A DNA stretch of 64,000 bases. Origin: Ruminococcus sp. YE71. Its GTDB lineage: Bacteria > Bacillota > Clostridia > Oscillospirales > Ruminococcaceae. Below, piece by piece: positions 48,881-57,144 of the stretch; positions within the stretch are counted from its first letter, which is position 1, and each line of letters opens with the position of its first letter. The notes under the pieces were generated by a model. It ran no database searches, had not been told where the DNA came from, and was given only the letters and a program-made list of their open reading frames with translations. The translations under genes and the position numbers were made by a program. The stretch spans positions 248,001 through 312,000 of the forward strand of contig NZ_FPIR01000002.1 in NCBI RefSeq assembly GCF_900119155.1. The letters run 5' to 3'.

Positions 48881-50053
48881 ATGATACACGATAAATATTA
48901 CCAGCTGCTGGGCGAACAGGACAAGATGCTCTCGAAGAAGAACCCGAAAAGCAGCTTCTACAACGGGATATACGACCGCTACGTCAACCCCGTGCTGACA
49001 AGGGCTCACATCCCGCTGCACTGGAGATACGACCTCTCGGCAGAGACCAACCCGTATTTTCAGGAGCGACTCGGCATCAACGCGGTGTTCAACGCGGGCG
49101 CGGTCAAGCTGAACGGCCGCTACTGCCTTATCGCACGCGTTGAGGGCAGCGACAGAAAGAGCTTTTTCGCGGTGGCGGAGAGCGACTGCGGCACTGAGGG
49201 CTTCCGATTCCGCGACTATCCCGTCGTTCTTCCCGAACTGACCGACGACGAGACCAACGTCTACGATATGCGCCTGACTCAGCACGAGGACGGCTGGATA
49301 TACGGCGTTTTCTGCGTGGAGAAGAGCGCAGGCACCGACGACCTTTCCGAGGCTGTGGCTTCGGCAGGCATCGCACGCACGAAGGATCTGACCAACTGGG
49401 AGCGTCTGCCCGACCTTGTGACCCTTCGCAGTCCCCAGCAGAGAAACGTTACCCTGCTGCCCGAATTCGTTGACGGGAAGTATGCATTCTACACCCGACC
49501 GATGGACGGCTTTATCGAGACAGGTTCGGGCGGAGGCATCGGCTTCGGACTGGCTGAGGACATCACCCACGCTGTTATCGACGAGGAGCGCATGACCAGC
49601 ATCCGCCGCTACCACACCATCACCGAGAGCAAGAACGGCGCAGGCGCGACGCCAATAAAGACCGAACGCGGCTGGCTGCACATCGCACACGGCGTGAGAA
49701 ACACCGCGGCAGGTCTGCGCTATGTCATCTACTGCTTCGTCACCGATCTGAAGGAGCCCTGGAAGGTCATCGCCGAGCCGGGCGGATATCTCATCGCTCC
49801 GTTCGGGGACGAGAGGGTCGGAGATGTTTCAAACGTGGTGTTCACAAACGGTGCCATCGCCGACGACAACGGCGACCTGTACATCTACTACGCTTCCTCG
49901 GACACACGTCTGCACGTCGCAAAGTCCACGGTGGACAAGCTCCTCGACTACGCTTTCAACACCCCTGCCGACGCACTCCGCACTGCAAAATGCGTCGAGC
50001 AGCGCTGCGGACTCATCAGCCGCAATCTTGACCTGCTGGCAGGCAAGGAATGA
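48881..50053 (+). CDS. 4-O-beta-D-mannosyl-D-glucose phosphorylase (GH130)
   Basis: A 390-residue GH130 phosphorylase that cleaves mannosyl-beta-1,4-glucose with phosphate to mannose 1-phosphate and glucose, the last step of beta-mannan use after epimerisation of mannobiose. The sequence closely matches my memory of the R. albus enzyme RaMP1, and the catalytic Asp lies in NVYDMRLT (about residue 129). [14 protein letters not shown] and [18 protein letters not shown] are typical. There is no signal peptide, so it acts in the cytoplasm. GGAGGAG precedes the ATG. It has its own promoter and terminator; the epimerase and mannanase genes are not adjacent. Confidence 0.92.
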
Positions 50054-50071
50054 TCTGTATCTGATTATACT

Positions 50072-50105
50072 GACCCCGCAGTTTCCTGCTGCGGGGTCTT
50101 TTTGT
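50072..50105 (+). terminator. Terminator after the GH130 gene
   Basis: GACCCCGCAG ... CTGCGGGGTC followed by TTTTT. Confidence 0.92.
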
Positions 50106-50178
50106 CGCTGATGATGACAGCTGTGCGGAGATTTTGACCGTTATTATCACGAAAATGCGAAATACTGCGACAAAGTCC

Positions 50179-50207
50179 TTGACACGGACGCTGACATCGG
50201 TTATAAT
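50179..50207 (+). promoter_or_regulatory. Promoter of the XRE/UDP-glucose dehydrogenase gene
   Basis: TTGACA at 50179-50184, an exact 17-bp spacer, TATAAT at 50202-50207; close to consensus. Confidence 0.88.
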
Positions 50208-50233
50208 AATAGTACGGCACATAAAACCGATGT
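50194..50233. promoter_or_regulatory. Inverted-repeat operator candidate over the -10 and start point
   Basis: ACATCGGTT (50194-50202) and AACCGATGT (50225-50233) are perfect 9-bp inverted arms 22 bp apart; the left one touches the -10 box. A further TGTCA...TGACA pair lies at 50233-50249. The XRE domain of the gene below may bind here. Confidence 0.5.
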
Positions 50234-50270
50234 GTCACCGATAATGACATCTGATACGGGAGGTCTTTCC

Positions 50271-51764
50271 ATGAAACATATATCCCTACAGCTGCTGGCG
50301 GAGACCGTGAGCAGCAAAAGAAAGGCGATGGGTCTTTCACAGTCCGCACTCGCAGAAAAAACTGGTATCAGCCGCACCATGTTCACAAGGCTCGAACAGG
50401 GGGATTACAGTCCGTCCATCGACCAGCTGCTCGCCCTTTCGGAGGTGCTCGGGTTCGACTATGCCGACCTTTTTGTTGAGGACACCGCCGAGGTGAAGCC
50501 TGTCGGACGAAAGAAGATAGCCGTCGCAGGTACGGGCTACGTGGGTCTGTCGCTGGCAGTCCTGCTGTCTCAGCACAATGACGTCACCGCCGTTGACATC
50601 GTTCCCGAGAAGGTCGAGAAGCTGAACAGCCGCAAGAGCCCCATTCAGGACGACTTCATCGAACAGTACCTCGCCGAATACGACGAGCGCGGACTTTCCC
50701 TCACCGCCACCGCGGACGGGGAGAGCGCCTACAGGGACGCGGACTTCATCATCGTCGCCGCTCCCACCAACTACGACCCAAAGACCAACTTCTTCGACTG
50801 CTCAGCGGTCGAGGCTGTGCTGGGGCTGATAAAGAAAGCGACCGCCGACCGCGAGAAGCAGCCGACAGTCGTTATAAAATCCACCATCCCCGTGGGCTAC
50901 ACCATGCAGGTGCGCGGAAAAATGGGGATGGACAACATCATTTTCAGCCCCGAATTCCTGCGGGAGTCGAAGGCGCTGTACGACAATCTCTACCCCAGCC
51001 GCATCATCGTCGGCTCGGACGAGAAGAACATGACAGCCGCCGAGGAATTCGCGGCGATGCTCCGGCAGGGGGCGGTGAAGCAGAACATCCCCGTGCTGTT
51101 CATGCCCACCACCGAAGCCGAAGCCACCAAGCTGTTCGTGAACACTTATCTCGCCCTGCGCGTCAGCTACTTCAACGAGCTGGACACCTACGCCGAGGTC
51201 AAGTCGCTGAACACAAGGGACATCATCCACGGCGTCTGCCTTGACCCCCGCGTGGGCGACTTCTACAACAATCCGTCCTTCGGCTACGGCGGCTACTGCC
51301 TGCCGAAGGATACCAAGCAGCTGCTCGCAAACTATCAGAATGTTCCGCAGAACATGATGACCGCGATAGTCGAGAGCAACCGCACCCGAAAGGATTTCAT
51401 CGCAGACCGCGTGCTTGAGATTGCAGGCACTTACGGCAACAGCGCGTCCTACTCTGCCGAGCAGGAGAGCAGGCAGAAGGAGATAGTTGTGGGCGTGTTC
51501 AGACTGACGATGAAGTCGAACTCGGACAATTTCCGTCAGAGCAGTATTCAGGGCGTCATGAAGCGCATCAAGGCGAAGGGCGCGACGGTCATCATCTACG
51601 AGCCGACCCTCGAAAACGGCAGTACGTTCTTCGGGTCGCTGGTGGTCAACGACCTGAAAAAGTTCAAGAAAAAGTGCGGATGCATCATCGCGAACCGCTA
51701 CGACAGCGCACTCGATGATGTGGAAGAAAAGGTCTACACCCGCGACCTTTTCAGGAGGGATTGA
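50271..51764 (+). CDS. XRE DNA-binding domain fused to UDP-glucose 6-dehydrogenase
   Basis: A 497-residue fusion. Residues ~5-68 are a complete XRE/Cro helix-turn-helix ([20 protein letters not shown] ... [20 protein letters not shown]). From ~80 on it is a nucleotide-sugar dehydrogenase: Rossmann [18 protein letters not shown], the central STIPVGYT and SPEFLRES blocks, and the catalytic Cys in [15 protein letters not shown]. It should oxidise UDP-glucose to UDP-glucuronate with NAD. The ATG at 50271 has GGGAGG upstream. The next gene is a UDP-glucuronate 4-epimerase. Inverted repeats over its own promoter suggest autoregulation, perhaps sensed through substrate or NADH (inference). Confidence 0.92.
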
Positions 51765-51767
51765 ATC

Positions 51768-52838
51768 ATGAGCAAAGTTAAGATAGGGCTGAACGGAAAG
51801 AGCATCCTTGTGACGGGTTCGCCGGGGTTCATCGGCGCGAATCTGGTGCTGAGACTGCTGAGGGAGATGACCTCGGGTACAGTTGTGAGCCTTGACAATA
51901 TGAACGACTACTACGACCCGAAGCTGAAGGAATACCGTCTCGGTCTCATCGGGAAAGCCGCGGAAAATTCGCCTGTTAAGCACGTTTTCGTGAAGGGCTC
52001 CATCGCGGACAAGGCGCTTGTGGACGAGCTGTTCGGTTCATATCATTTCGACATTGTTGTGAACCTTGCGGCGCAGGCAGGGGTGCGGTACTCCATCGAC
52101 CATCCCGACGTGTACATCGAGTCGAACATCATCGGTTTCTACAACATCCTCGAAGCGTGCAGGCATTATCCTGTCGAGCATCTTGTTTACGCAAGTTCGT
52201 CGAGCGTTTACGGCGGCAACAAGAAAGTGCCGTTTTCCACCGACGACAAGGTCGATAATCCCGTCAGCCTTTATGCCGCGACGAAGAAGAGCAACGAGCT
52301 TCTTGCCCACAGTTATTCAAAGCTGTACAACATCCCGTCCACGGGGCTGAGGTTTTTCACGGTGTACGGGCCTGCGGGCAGACCTGATATGTTTTATTTT
52401 TCCGCAACGAACACGCTTGCGAAGGACGGCAGGATAAAGATATTCAACTACGGCAACTGCAAGCGTGATTTCACGTATGTTGACGACATTGTCGAGGGAG
52501 TTTTCCGTGTGATGCAGGGAGCGCCCGAGAAGGCTACAGGCGAGGACGGTCTGCCGATGCCGCCGTATGCGGTGTACAACATTGGCGGCGGAACGCCCGA
52601 GAATCTGCTGGATTATATCAGCACGTTGCAGGAGGAGCTTGTGAGAGCGGGTGTACTTCCTGCCGATTATGATTTTGAGGGGCATAGGGAGCTTGTGGGG
52701 ATGCAGCCCGGGGATGTGCCTGTGACGTATGCGGACAGTAAGGCATTGGAAGATGATTACGGATTCAGACCGACGATTGGCATCCGAGAAGGTCTTCGCA
52801 AATTTGCGGAGTGGTATAAAGACTATTATATAAGATAG
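51768..52838 (+). CDS. UDP-glucuronate 4-epimerase-like NAD-dependent epimerase
   Basis: A 356-residue extended SDR. ILVTGSPGFIGANLVLRLL is the NAD motif (Gly-x-x-Gly-x-x-Gly with Ser-Pro), and SSSSVYGG with YAATKKSNE gives the catalytic Ser, Tyr and Lys. NYGNCKRDFTYVDDIV is typical of UDP-glucuronate/UDP-galacturonate epimerases. It lies 3 bp after the dehydrogenase gene, with AGGAGGG at its end, so the two probably make UDP-galacturonate for surface polysaccharide. Confidence 0.9.
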   Translation: MSKVKIGLNGKSILVTGSPGFIGANLVLRLLREMTSGTVVSLDNMNDYYDPKLKEYRLGLIGKAAENSPVKHVFVKGSIADKALVDELFGSYHFDIVVNLAAQAGVRYSIDHPDVYIESNIIGFYNILEACRHYPVEHLVYASSSSVYGGNKKVPFSTDDKVDNPVSLYAATKKSNELLAHSYSKLYNIPSTGLRFFTVYGPAGRPDMFYFSATNTLAKDGRIKIFNYGNCKRDFTYVDDIVEGVFRVMQGAPEKATGEDGLPMPPYAVYNIGGGTPENLLDYISTLQEELVRAGVLPADYDFEGHRELVGMQPGDVPVTYADSKALEDDYGFRPTIGIREGLRKFAEWYKDYYIR

Positions 52839-52854
52839 TATAACCGTCCCGTGA

Positions 52855-52921
52855 GCGCCAGAGCAGAAAAAAAGTTTAGGAGGGGTGTAGCCCCCCTCCT
52901 AAACTTTTTTGACTCTGGCGT
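52855..52921 (+). terminator. Long hairpin terminator after the epimerase gene
   Basis: Nested stem: CGCCAGAG/CTCTGGCG outside and GTTTAGGAGGGG/CCCCTCCTAAAC inside, with T6 after the inner stem. A second hairpin GGCACTTTTGTC/GACAAAGGTGCC follows at about 52942-52970. Confidence 0.85.
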
Positions 52922-54528: not shown

Positions 54529-57144
54529 TTACTTTATGGGAAGGTCGGACTTTTTGTAGATGCCCAGAACGACCTTCTGAACAGCCTCAGCGTCTGCCTT
54601 GGTCACGCCGTCGCCGTTTCCGACAACGTCAGCGTTCTTCTTGCCGCTTTCGGTCAGCTTGTACTTGCTCGGCTGATCGAGAGACTGACGGATGAGGACA
54701 GCGTCTGCGAGGTCAACTTCGCCGTCGCAGTTTGCGTCGCCGTAGATTATCGTTTCGTCCTGCGGGTCGGGATCGTGTGTGGAATCAGCGATCTTGCCGT
54801 ATACGATACCGCAGCCGACAGTTGACATATACACCTTGCCGAATTCATCCATGTCGCCTACGAGGTAGTTGCCGTTGCCCGTGCCGCCGTAGAGGTGGTC
54901 GGTGTTGATGCAGTCCCAGGTCTTGCCGCCGTCGGTAGAACGGTAGATGCCCTCGGGGTCGGATGCGGAAGGCTTGCCGTAGATGAACAGGGTGTTGATT
55001 CCGCCCTCCTTCTCGGGAGCGCCGTAGCCTACGGTCTTTGCGTAGGAAACGTTGTCGAGCTTTTCTACCTTAGCGCCCTTGTTGGAGACCTTGTACATAC
55101 CGTACCAGCCTGCTGCCACGATTATCGAACCGTCGCCGAGGTAAGCGGGGTCGCCTGTGCTGTCGCACATATCGTATCTGCAAAGAGTCTGAGCGGTGAA
55201 GGTAGCGCCGTAGTCGGTGCTGACAAAGAAGCCGTAGTGGGATTCTTCAAGCGTCGGCTCGGTCTTGGTCTTGTCTGAAGCCCAGTAGTCGTTATGCTTA
55301 ACGCCCGAAGCGTAAACTATCGAGGGATCTTTCGGATCAACGAGAGTGTAAACGGTCTTGGAAGCGTCGATACCGCTGGCTTTGGTCCAGGTCGCGCCGA
55401 AGTCGTCCGAGTAGTTTACAGCGCCGTTAACGCTCGAATTGATGATCCTGTACTTGTTCTTGGAGAGCTGAGTGATGGAGAGCTTTCCGCCCGAGCAGGA
55501 CGGGGTGAATTCATTCCATGTCTTGCCTCTGTCGAGGGTGTAATATCCCTTGCTAAGGTCGTTTGAGGTCCTTGCCCAGACGTCGGTATTCTGCGGGCAA
55601 ACAGCGATCGCAGAGGTCGAACCCATGTTCGGCTGATACTGGAGGCCGATCTTATCCTCGCTCTCGTGAACGAAGCCGTCGTAGTCGCCTATCGCAGAGA
55701 GGTCAAGACCGTCGGGAGTGCTCACGAAGTCAAGCGAAACAACCTCCTCGATGCCGTCGGGGTGGAATGTGAAGGTCGGGAGCTTGTCCTGGTCGGTGCT
55801 CCAGAGGTTCTCACAGATGAACACGCCGTTGCCCGAGGTGATGAACATTCTGTCGGAGTTGCGCGGGTCGGTAACTACTGTACCCGACCAGTGGATAGCC
55901 TTGTCTCTTATCCATTCGTAGCCGCCGTCCTGGAGGTAGTTGGATACGAGGGGCTGGTTCCAGCCGTGGGTCTGTCCCGGCGAGAAATTCTCCCAGGTCT
56001 CACCGCCGTCGAAGGAGCGGAAGTACTGGTCGCCCCAGCAAGCGCCGTGCTGGTCGGTCCATTCCTGCCAGAGCTGAGCCTGCCACTTGCCGCAGCTTCC
56101 TGCGATGAGGTGGTCGGGGTTATTGGGGTCTGCCCAGATGGAGCCGAGACCGAAGGTCGATTCAAATATCTGAGATACCTTGCCTGTCTTCGGGGAGTAC
56201 TTGTATCCGCCGCCGCTGGAGCCGTCGAATGCCAGTCCCGAGATGTAGGAGATGAGCAGGTCGCCGTTTGCGTCGATGTTTATTCTCGAAGGAAGAAGGT
56301 TGGTGGGGAGATCCTTGCTGAGCTCGGTGAACTTGTCGTCCTTGACGTTTGCAACATGAACGTTCGCAACGCCCTTCTTGGAAGTGCCGACATATACCTT
56401 GCCGCCTGTGATAGCGATGTTCGCAACGCCGTTCTGGGTGTTGTAAGCGCCTTCCGATACTGCACGGGCGTAAATGTCTACCCATGTCGGCCACTTGGTC
56501 TTGTTGTCGAACAGTCCGAGGGCATCGTATCCGAGAACGGGCTCCCAGGTCTCGCCGCCGTCGGTGGACTTGATGAGCGCGGACTTGGAATCCATGTCGG
56601 AAGTAACGTCGCCGCCTGCGTAGATGATGTTCGGGTTGTCGGGGTCAACAGCTATGGATTCGCCGCACTGTCTGCCGTCGCCGTTGCCCATTACCTTGAT
56701 AAGGCTGGTAACGTCGATCTCCTTGAAGGTCTTGCCGCCGTCGGTGGTCTTGAAGATGACGGTCTTTTCAGCCGAGAAGTAAGCGCAGCCGCAGAGGAAG
56801 TAAACGGTATCGTCGTCTGTGGGGTCGATAGCCATAGCGTCAACGCTGAGGAGACCGCGGTCAGCCTCGTTGATGAAGCCGAAGAGCTGATCCCAGGATT
56901 CAGTGTCGTAGTTGTACTTGTAAGCGCCGCCTACGTCGGTACGTGCGTACATCACCGACTTGCCCGTAACGATACCCGAAACGAAGCCGCCGCCGCCGAT
57001 CTTGAGGGTGCCCCATTCCATGGTCGATGAGATGTCAGCGGCAGAAGCCGTGATCGCGGGAACGCCCGCGCCTGCAAAGGACATTGTCGAAGCTGTAACG
57101 CTAAGAGCCATCAGTCCCGAGATAATTTTTTTACATAAATTCAT
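54529..57144 (-). CDS. Secreted GH74 xyloglucanase with C-terminal dockerin
   Basis: An 871-residue secreted enzyme. A signal peptide (about 1-36, ending SASA/A) is followed by two seven-bladed propellers of GH74 built from Asp-box-like repeats (TDGGKTF, TDGGETW, FDGGETWENFSP, TDYGATF). The catalytic Asp pair fits ARTDVGGAYK (Asp70) and IGDYDGFVHE (Asp487). The C-terminal ~65 residues form a type I dockerin with two calcium loops (DANCDGEVDLAD; DVVGNGDGVTKAD). It cleaves plant xyloglucan and should dock on a cohesin protein. GGAGGG precedes the ATG. It has its own promoter. Confidence 0.94.
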   Translation of the reverse strand: MNLCKKIISGLMALSVTASTMSFAGAGVPAITASAADISSTMEWGTLKIGGGGFVSGIVTGKSVMYARTDVGGAYKYNYDTESWDQLFGFINEADRGLLSVDAMAIDPTDDDTVYFLCGCAYFSAEKTVIFKTTDGGKTFKEIDVTSLIKVMGNGDGRQCGESIAVDPDNPNIIYAGGDVTSDMDSKSALIKSTDGGETWEPVLGYDALGLFDNKTKWPTWVDIYARAVSEGAYNTQNGVANIAITGGKVYVGTSKKGVANVHVANVKDDKFTELSKDLPTNLLPSRINIDANGDLLISYISGLAFDGSSGGGYKYSPKTGKVSQIFESTFGLGSIWADPNNPDHLIAGSCGKWQAQLWQEWTDQHGACWGDQYFRSFDGGETWENFSPGQTHGWNQPLVSNYLQDGGYEWIRDKAIHWSGTVVTDPRNSDRMFITSGNGVFICENLWSTDQDKLPTFTFHPDGIEEVVSLDFVSTPDGLDLSAIGDYDGFVHESEDKIGLQYQPNMGSTSAIAVCPQNTDVWARTSNDLSKGYYTLDRGKTWNEFTPSCSGGKLSITQLSKNKYRIINSSVNGAVNYSDDFGATWTKASGIDASKTVYTLVDPKDPSIVYASGVKHNDYWASDKTKTEPTLEESHYGFFVSTDYGATFTAQTLCRYDMCDSTGDPAYLGDGSIIVAAGWYGMYKVSNKGAKVEKLDNVSYAKTVGYGAPEKEGGINTLFIYGKPSASDPEGIYRSTDGGKTWDCINTDHLYGGTGNGNYLVGDMDEFGKVYMSTVGCGIVYGKIADSTHDPDPQDETIIYGDANCDGEVDLADAVLIRQSLDQPSKYKLTESGKKNADVVGNGDGVTKADAEAVQKVVLGIYKKSDLPIK

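Follow-up and report, generated by a model that had tools for sequence, protein, structure and literature searches.

Few enzymes are known to act directly as repressors of their own genes. A helix-turn-helix (HTH) domain attached to a working nucleotide enzyme is present in the repressor NadR, which carries an NMN adenylyltransferase; both its enzyme and its regulon differ from those of the protein described here, in which an XRE-type HTH domain is fused to a UDP-glucose dehydrogenase. A way of working similar to the one proposed below is reported for PutA of Escherichia coli and Salmonella (PMC5293562), and no kinship between the two proteins is claimed. PutA, as described there, is a proline-oxidising flavoenzyme with a ribbon-helix-helix domain that also represses putP, whereas the fusion combines XRE and UDP-glucose dehydrogenase parts; neither ribbon-helix-helix nor proline dehydrogenase domains are found among the Pfam matches of the fusion (E ≤ 0.001). 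Common to both is a DNA-binding domain carried by an enzyme with intact catalytic residues together with operators at the own promoter, which in the case of the fusion are recognized by sequence only. BzdR, as reported, consists of a DNA-binding domain and a shikimate-kinase-like domain that has lost its activity, binds benzoyl-CoA, and controls benzoate genes. The fusion is unlike BzdR in that its catalytic residues are intact (68/68 fusions) and its likely target is its own gene; a shikimate-kinase-like domain is absent from its Pfam matches.

With regard to DNA architecture, two operators bracketing the gal promoters and a repressing loop of 113 bp are described for GalR (PMC4693257). GalR is a dedicated regulator and not an enzyme, whereas the loop postulated for the fusion is deduced from operator spacing alone. 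An account of an HTH-UDP-glucose dehydrogenase fusion was not found in a search that covered the open literature and few subscription journals.

Domain Organization of the Fusion Protein

The fusion gene is located on the forward strand at positions 50271..51764 of the window, which is the whole 64,000-nucleotide stretch of DNA from Ruminococcus sp. YE71 that was analysed, and encodes 497 amino acids (stop codon included in the coordinates). Its start is the ATG at 50271, which is also the start of most homologues and is preceded by the ribosome-binding site GGGAGG (50258..50263, + strand, read directly); the upstream GTG of the longest reading frame is not used. Position 50179, given as the gene start in the first-pass annotation, had to be corrected, as it belongs to the -35 box of the promoter.

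The same annotation had described a full XRE HTH joined to a UDP-glucose dehydrogenase with intact Rossmann and catalytic Cys motifs, and on these points it was right. The HTH domain comprises residues 16-65 (50316..50465, +) and is matched by Pfam HTH_3 (PF01381) with 45.3 bits against a cut-off of 23 (E 8.7e-12). In an AlphaFold2 model, for which 24 of the 68 fusion sequences served as input and which is poor in the enzyme part, residues 1-70 form a helical domain with pLDDT values of 81-93. Recognition helix 3, SRTMFTRLE, corresponds to residues 34-42 (50370..50396, +), is modelled as a helix from residue 35 to 42, and covaries with the operators at residues 34 and 36-39.

A short linker connects the HTH domain to the dehydrogenase part, which extends over residues 81-497 (50511..51761, +) according to solved structures and over residues 81-486 according to Pfam. 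It contains, in this order, the domains PF03721, PF00984, and PF03720, all scoring over their cut-offs. Among the NCBIfam models, TIGR03026 is matched over its cut-off, while the equivalog NF011631 reaches 533 bits versus a cut-off of 757. The best sequence matches among solved proteins are the UDP-glucose dehydrogenases 3phl and 1dli of the same family (E 1e-146 and 2e-137), with alignments that run from residue 81 or 82 to the C-terminal end of the fusion; HTH and enzyme are covered together by none of the 37 sequences among the matches listed. The Rossmann glycines are intact, and residues T166, E228, E232, K287, N291, C343 (the catalytic Cys, encoded at 51297-51299), and D347 are identical in all 68 fusions (67 homologues and that of the window); the roles of this Thr, the two Glu, and the Lys, Asn, Cys, and Asp are presumed to be those of their counterparts in the Streptococcus enzyme. 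In view of this invariance, the fused dehydrogenase is probably enzymatically active. An insertion in the C-terminal domain, seen in comparison with the solved structures, was considered as a fusion-specific trait and discarded, because stand-alone relatives contain the insertion as well, in similar length.

A Conserved Pair of Predicted Operators

The promoter of the fusion gene consists of the -35 box TTGACA (50179..50184, +) and the -10 box TATAAT (50202..50207, +), both read directly and separated by a 17-bp spacer, which agrees with the near-consensus promoter noted initially. Many homologues have near-consensus promoters at similar places. In a scan of named bacterial genomes, 80 of 92 relatives were kept, among them 67 full fusions, 11 stand-alone dehydrogenases, one broken fusion (L051), and one locus cut by a contig end (L069); the last three groups (13 of the 80 loci) were left out before the motif search. 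The motif was trained on the 130 bp that immediately precede the start codons of the 67 fusions and of the fusion in the window (68 sequences).

The palindromic motif search in these 68 fusion promoters recovered the 17-bp palindrome TGTYRYTnnnARYRACA with a log-likelihood of 477, compared to 22-32 in five shuffled sets, where it has to be considered that the shuffles were run from 40 starting points versus 120 and that independence is overstated, the loci being related. In the window, two predicted operators match this motif. Operator O1, TGTCACCGATAATGACA, is located at 50233..50249, past the -10 box and ahead of the ribosome-binding site, and scores 19.2 bits. Operator O2, TGTCGCTGATGATGACA, at 50103..50119, scores 20.6 bits although it lies 130 bp upstream of O1, outside the region on which the matrix was trained; by eye, it adjoins the apparent terminator of the upstream gene.

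After promoters that were at least 80% alike had been dropped, 53 representatives were left. At a threshold of at least 12 bits, O1 is present in 38 of these, an upstream site in 31, and both in 27; the upstream site is situated wholly outside the training region in 28 of the 53, including all 27 two-site representatives, while the sites of L060, L066, and L071 lie inside. In the control, 50 column-shuffled matrices yielded 0.6 on average and 12 at most, and another draw with a wider region gave 0.36 and 3, respectively. When all 68 promoters are considered at 12 bits, 57 contain a site (40 both, 17 one) and 11 contain none. Five fusions lack any site of at least 7 bits; L053 and L058 have a damaged helix 3, and the helices of L052, L067, and L068 are undamaged. 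Weaker palindromes of the TGTTA type are found in L067 and L068, and none in L052.

The motif was also applied to eight fusions with dissimilar promoters that had not been seen in training. Four of them (L102, L103, L105, and L135) reach 12 bits, and L098, L107, L136, and L137 stay below. L103 displays the pair pattern, its two palindromes being separated by 132 bp, and in the distant fusion L137, two TGTTA-type palindromes 116 bp apart are recognizable by eye. Additional copies occur occasionally: L029, L031, L034, L038, and L045 carry a third operator approximately 33 bp upstream of O2, near positions -190 to -193 relative to the ATG, and an operator-like site within the coding sequence, at +424 from the fusion start, was noticed in L017 and L035, where it may be a codon coincidence.

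Spacing of the Operators and Proposed Mechanism

The distance between O1 and O2 is 130, 131, or 132 bp in 21 of the 27 two-site representatives, and 122, 136, 146, 158, 161, and 163 bp in the remaining six. In the pairs spaced by 130-132 bp, the promoter sits between the two sites. The intervening sequence of these 21 pairs is poorly conserved, with a median identity of 44% when aligned and, for the first 53 bp between the sites compared without gaps, a near-random value of 0.32 versus 0.28 after shuffling; it is therefore the distance and not the sequence that is kept. The gap from the -10 box to O1 is 25 bp in 13 of 34 representatives, as in the window, and 26 bp in 14 of them. Thus, as is typical of loop-formers, two operators are found around a promoter at conserved spacing; with O1 behind the predicted transcription start and O2 in front of it, both fixed with respect to the promoter, the layout is that of a loop-closing repressor.

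Based on sequence comparison, the UDP-glucose dehydrogenase fusion would in all likelihood also act as repressor of its own gene, using O1 and O2 on either side of the promoter, a probable DNA loop, and the state of the enzyme as the switch. The N-terminal XRE domain, as a dimer, would bind both 17-bp palindromes, of which O1 follows closely on the transcription start and O2 is in most cases found 130-132 bp upstream of O1. A dimeric state, as is usual for bacterial dehydrogenases of this type, would fit the occupation of each palindrome by one dimer. Two bound dimers would probably touch via the enzyme part and thereby close a loop over the promoter. Bridging of O1 and O2 would need a higher oligomer. 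Occupancy of the enzyme by substrate, product, or NAD(H) would be the natural switch for release. The autoregulation suggested by the first-pass annotation is, thus, well supported by the comparison of homologues, albeit through O1 and O2 and not through the inverted repeat to which it had been ascribed.

Autorepression might also be achieved without a loop, O1 blocking transcription and O2 serving as an independent auxiliary site that hinders the polymerase or raises the local amount of protein. This arrangement deserves serious consideration, even if it is not the one we favour. It would be compatible with the detection at 12 bits of both sites in only 40 of 68 promoters and of one site in 17, and with the fixed gap of 25-26 bp between the -10 box and O1 (27/34), in view of which each site could be anchored to the promoter separately. 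Furthermore, with 10.5 bp per turn, 130-132 bp correspond to 12.4-12.6 turns; this is a non-whole number on relaxed DNA, so a simple loop is not favoured, although such a distance could be reconciled with looping by supercoiling or by a different geometry. Nothing clear emerged by hand concerning helical phasing among the six outlying spacings. Against independent sites stands the preservation of 130-132 bp in 21 of 27 pairs despite an unconserved spacer, and the distant L137 again has two palindromes, 116 bp apart.

Activation instead of repression of the own promoter is unlikely. O2 does lie upstream of the -35 box, which is a location used by activators, but O1 downstream of the -10 box occupies the position of a repressor site, and a promoter that matches the consensus should need no help.

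Correspondence between Recognition Helix and Operator

Fusions with a Met-Phe helix (SRTMFT or NRTMFT), which is the kind present in the window, have TGTC half-sites in 14 of 15 loci, while TGTC half-sites are absent from 41 of the 42 loci with other helices (57 loci with a site in total; the exceptions are L017, which is tied, and L065). The other main helix class, NRS..S[RK]LE, is mostly accompanied by TGTTGC or TGACGC. When the variable columns of residues 2-80 from 41 representatives were tied to the variable bases of the operator and ranked by z against shuffled labels, residues 39, 38, 37, 36, and 34 were leading (21.8-11.0), followed by residue 21 with 7.2; among 203 variable columns of the enzyme, z was at most 4.8. 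If the share of variance is taken as it stands, residue 64 (0.48) ranks above residues 39, 36, and 34, for which reason the tie between helix and operator, as far as it can be read from covariation, is strong but not clean. If the HTH domain and the promoter were merely linked, one would not expect helix 3 in particular to stand out.

Three genomes contain paralogues of differing helix class, each with matching operators, namely, R. flavefaciens 007c (L010/L032), R. flavefaciens ATCC 19208 (L075/L026), and one metagenome-assembled genome (L021/L041). The paralogues L047 and L055 of strain YAD2003 share one helix class and the same operators; therefore, paralogues are not always insulated from each other. 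L026 and L047 are sisters according to the enzyme and unlike in HTH and operators. Judging from such sequences, the HTH domain and the operators, which are placed side by side, seem to travel together by recombination, with the consequence that the agreement between them counts fewer independent events than loci. A sign test on well-supported tree branches was left with three pairs, too few for significance, and a tree of the HTH domain without helix 3 was poorly resolved, with one supported pair. R. flavefaciens Y1 possesses, besides the intact fusion L008, a second copy that is broken (L051:4001-5419; match from residue 24, 108-amino acid frame).

Taken further, the proposal would be that of an active, loop-forming, metabolite-sensing self-repressor, some duplicates of which possess mutually exclusive helix-operator pairs, each sensing its product and controlling only itself. 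In this extended form it could well apply, but it is advanced with reserve. Paralogues with different operators would represent a ready set of non-interfering single-protein feedback regulators. The dozens of natural helix-operator pairs make a recognition code, as well as the ligand switch, directly testable.

Specificity of the Operators

Upstream of stand-alone dehydrogenases, a site of at least 12 bits was found in none of 54 relatives (sets of 31 and 23; up to 400 bp upstream; best score 9.9), which are 61-79% identical to the fused protein and of which L070 and L106 are apparently one locus. Dropped from this control were L001, L104 (a fusion), and L118, without a readable motif, and L149, without upstream sequence. 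The entire 175 kb of the first 31 stand-alone loci contain a single 14-bit site, in L076 and away from the gene start. Of the 108 sites of at least 14 bits in the 571 kb of the 67 fusion loci, 98 are concentrated within 420 bp ahead of the fusion.

In the genome of the window, six perfect matches to TGTCAYN5RTGACA exist besides O1; four are in open reading frames, L090 overlaps the end of a reading frame, and L086 is placed between frames. With one mismatch allowed, 61 sites were counted versus 22 for the reversed pattern. The idea of a wider regulon in this genome was dropped, though a small one may exist, the one-mismatch sites inspected having been L091-L093 and O2. A strict operator-pair pattern, which missed 6 of the 10 fusion genomes, had matches in 7 of 396 genomes of the family. 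In G000, G303, G269, and G398, the pair is found at the promoter of the fusion and nowhere else; in G399, G322, and G352, it is not at a fusion, and the reversed control likewise hit three genomes (G092, G125, and G361). Paired TGTCGCC...GGCGACA sequences at G322:C6:55284-55432 and G352:C55:24159-24304, with no fusion detected nearby, look repetitive and not like operators.

These distributions bear on the question of whether the operators might serve a separate XRE regulator, the fused HTH domain being a passenger. XRE proteins are widespread, with binding sites that resemble one another, and binding of the operators by the fusion is only predicted; still, this explanation is quite improbable in light of the absence of sites from all 54 stand-alone relatives, the operator bases that track helix 3 of the fused domain itself, the paralogues of three genomes with different and matching operators, and the lack of operators at L053 and L058 with their damaged helices.

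Just as little can be expected from, and slightly less credit is given to, an interpretation of the palindrome as a leader RNA hairpin acting on translation, stability, or termination. O1 is part of the predicted leader, and its symmetric copies would, by eye, form a 7-bp hairpin with a 3-base loop. O2, with the same motif, however, ends 59 bp before the -35 box of the window and is outside the predicted transcript; in L063, L066, and L071, the listed site is found only at -89 to -93, before the predicted promoters; a search of positions 49900-50500 against Rfam gave nothing over the gathering score and two hits below it, neither credible; and the covariation of the motif bases with helix 3 speaks for a DNA site.

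The inverted repeat to which attention had been drawn at first consists of the 9-bp arms ACATCGGTT (50194..50202) and AACCGATGT (50225..50233). As stated in the first-pass annotation, the left arm touches the -10 box, overlapping it by one base. When the 130-bp promoter is shuffled with its dinucleotides preserved, a perfect 9-bp dyad with a loop of up to 30 bases appears in 0.75% of cases, and an equally good dyad is contained in 4% of the 130-bp stretches of the window (sampled every 50 bp), so the repeat is somewhat unusual without being rare. With one mismatch allowed, arms are seen at scattered positions in 6 of the 67 homologous fusions. The comparison of homologous promoters proposed together with the repeat speaks against it and revealed another, conserved upstream dyad. 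That the first-noted repeat is the operator is next to inconceivable, given that neither arm occurs exactly in any of the 67 homologous fusions (up to 400 bp upstream) and that the right arm has just one base, its last, in common with O1 (the first base of the latter).

Distribution and Genomic Context

Within the genus, the full fusion is encoded in 5 of 13 genomes. In the family, a close dehydrogenase is present in 77 of 396 genomes and the full fusion, defined by a match from residue 1, in 10; the corresponding figures for the class are 80 and 5 of 381 genomes, the five fusions belonging to five family codes. Ruminococcus is the title genus of 31 of the 67 named fusion records, including 14 of R. 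flavefaciens; the others derive from different or unplaced bacteria, for the most part Clostridia according to their titles, with many metagenome-assembled genomes. If the proposed circuit is true, sugar-nucleotide metabolism would join the processes governed by self-repressing enzymes, and it would do so in many species. UDP-glucuronate, the expected product of the fused enzyme, commonly feeds surface polysaccharides, and the circuit may set the amount of surface polysaccharide in gut and rumen bacteria.

In the window, the fusion gene is followed after 3 bp by a gene for an NAD-dependent epimerase (51768..52838, +; Pfam Epimerase, E 5.7e-51), which by position is part of the same operon; it is likely a UDP-glucuronate 4-epimerase and likely transcribed together with the fusion. 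The co-control of this epimerase that had been suggested fits the layout of the window, yet among the 67 homologous fusion loci, a relative of the epimerase follows immediately in 27 and at a greater distance in 14; none was found in 23 loci where 1 kb or more behind the fusion was in view, and 3 loci end too early to show it. As an adjacent epimerase is limited to these 27 loci, the common target would be the fusion gene itself, and genes of UDP-uronate metabolism behind it, where present and if the pathway is assigned properly, would be further targets.

Other genes are encountered at this position as well. An unfused second UDP-glucose dehydrogenase is encoded directly behind the fusion at L034:4861-6084, L056:5546-6769, and L060:5523-6746; that of L060, the only one compared, is 61% identical to the enzyme of the window. 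The sequence at its cofactor site is AITTT versus AVDIV in the fused enzyme, so that it might have another cofactor preference. Behind the fusion of L043 (5498-7416), a galactokinase-like kinase and a nucleotidyl transferase are encoded, which suggests salvage of uronic acid to UDP-galacturonate; such a kinase is also found in L056. In the window, a strong inverted repeat flanked by runs of A and T follows the epimerase gene at 52869-52912 and is, by eye, probably a terminator. Further downstream, on the reverse strand (54529-57144), a large protein is encoded whose N-terminus is signal-like and whose C-terminus resembles a dockerin and which, judged by eye, is probably a cellulosome glycoside hydrolase.
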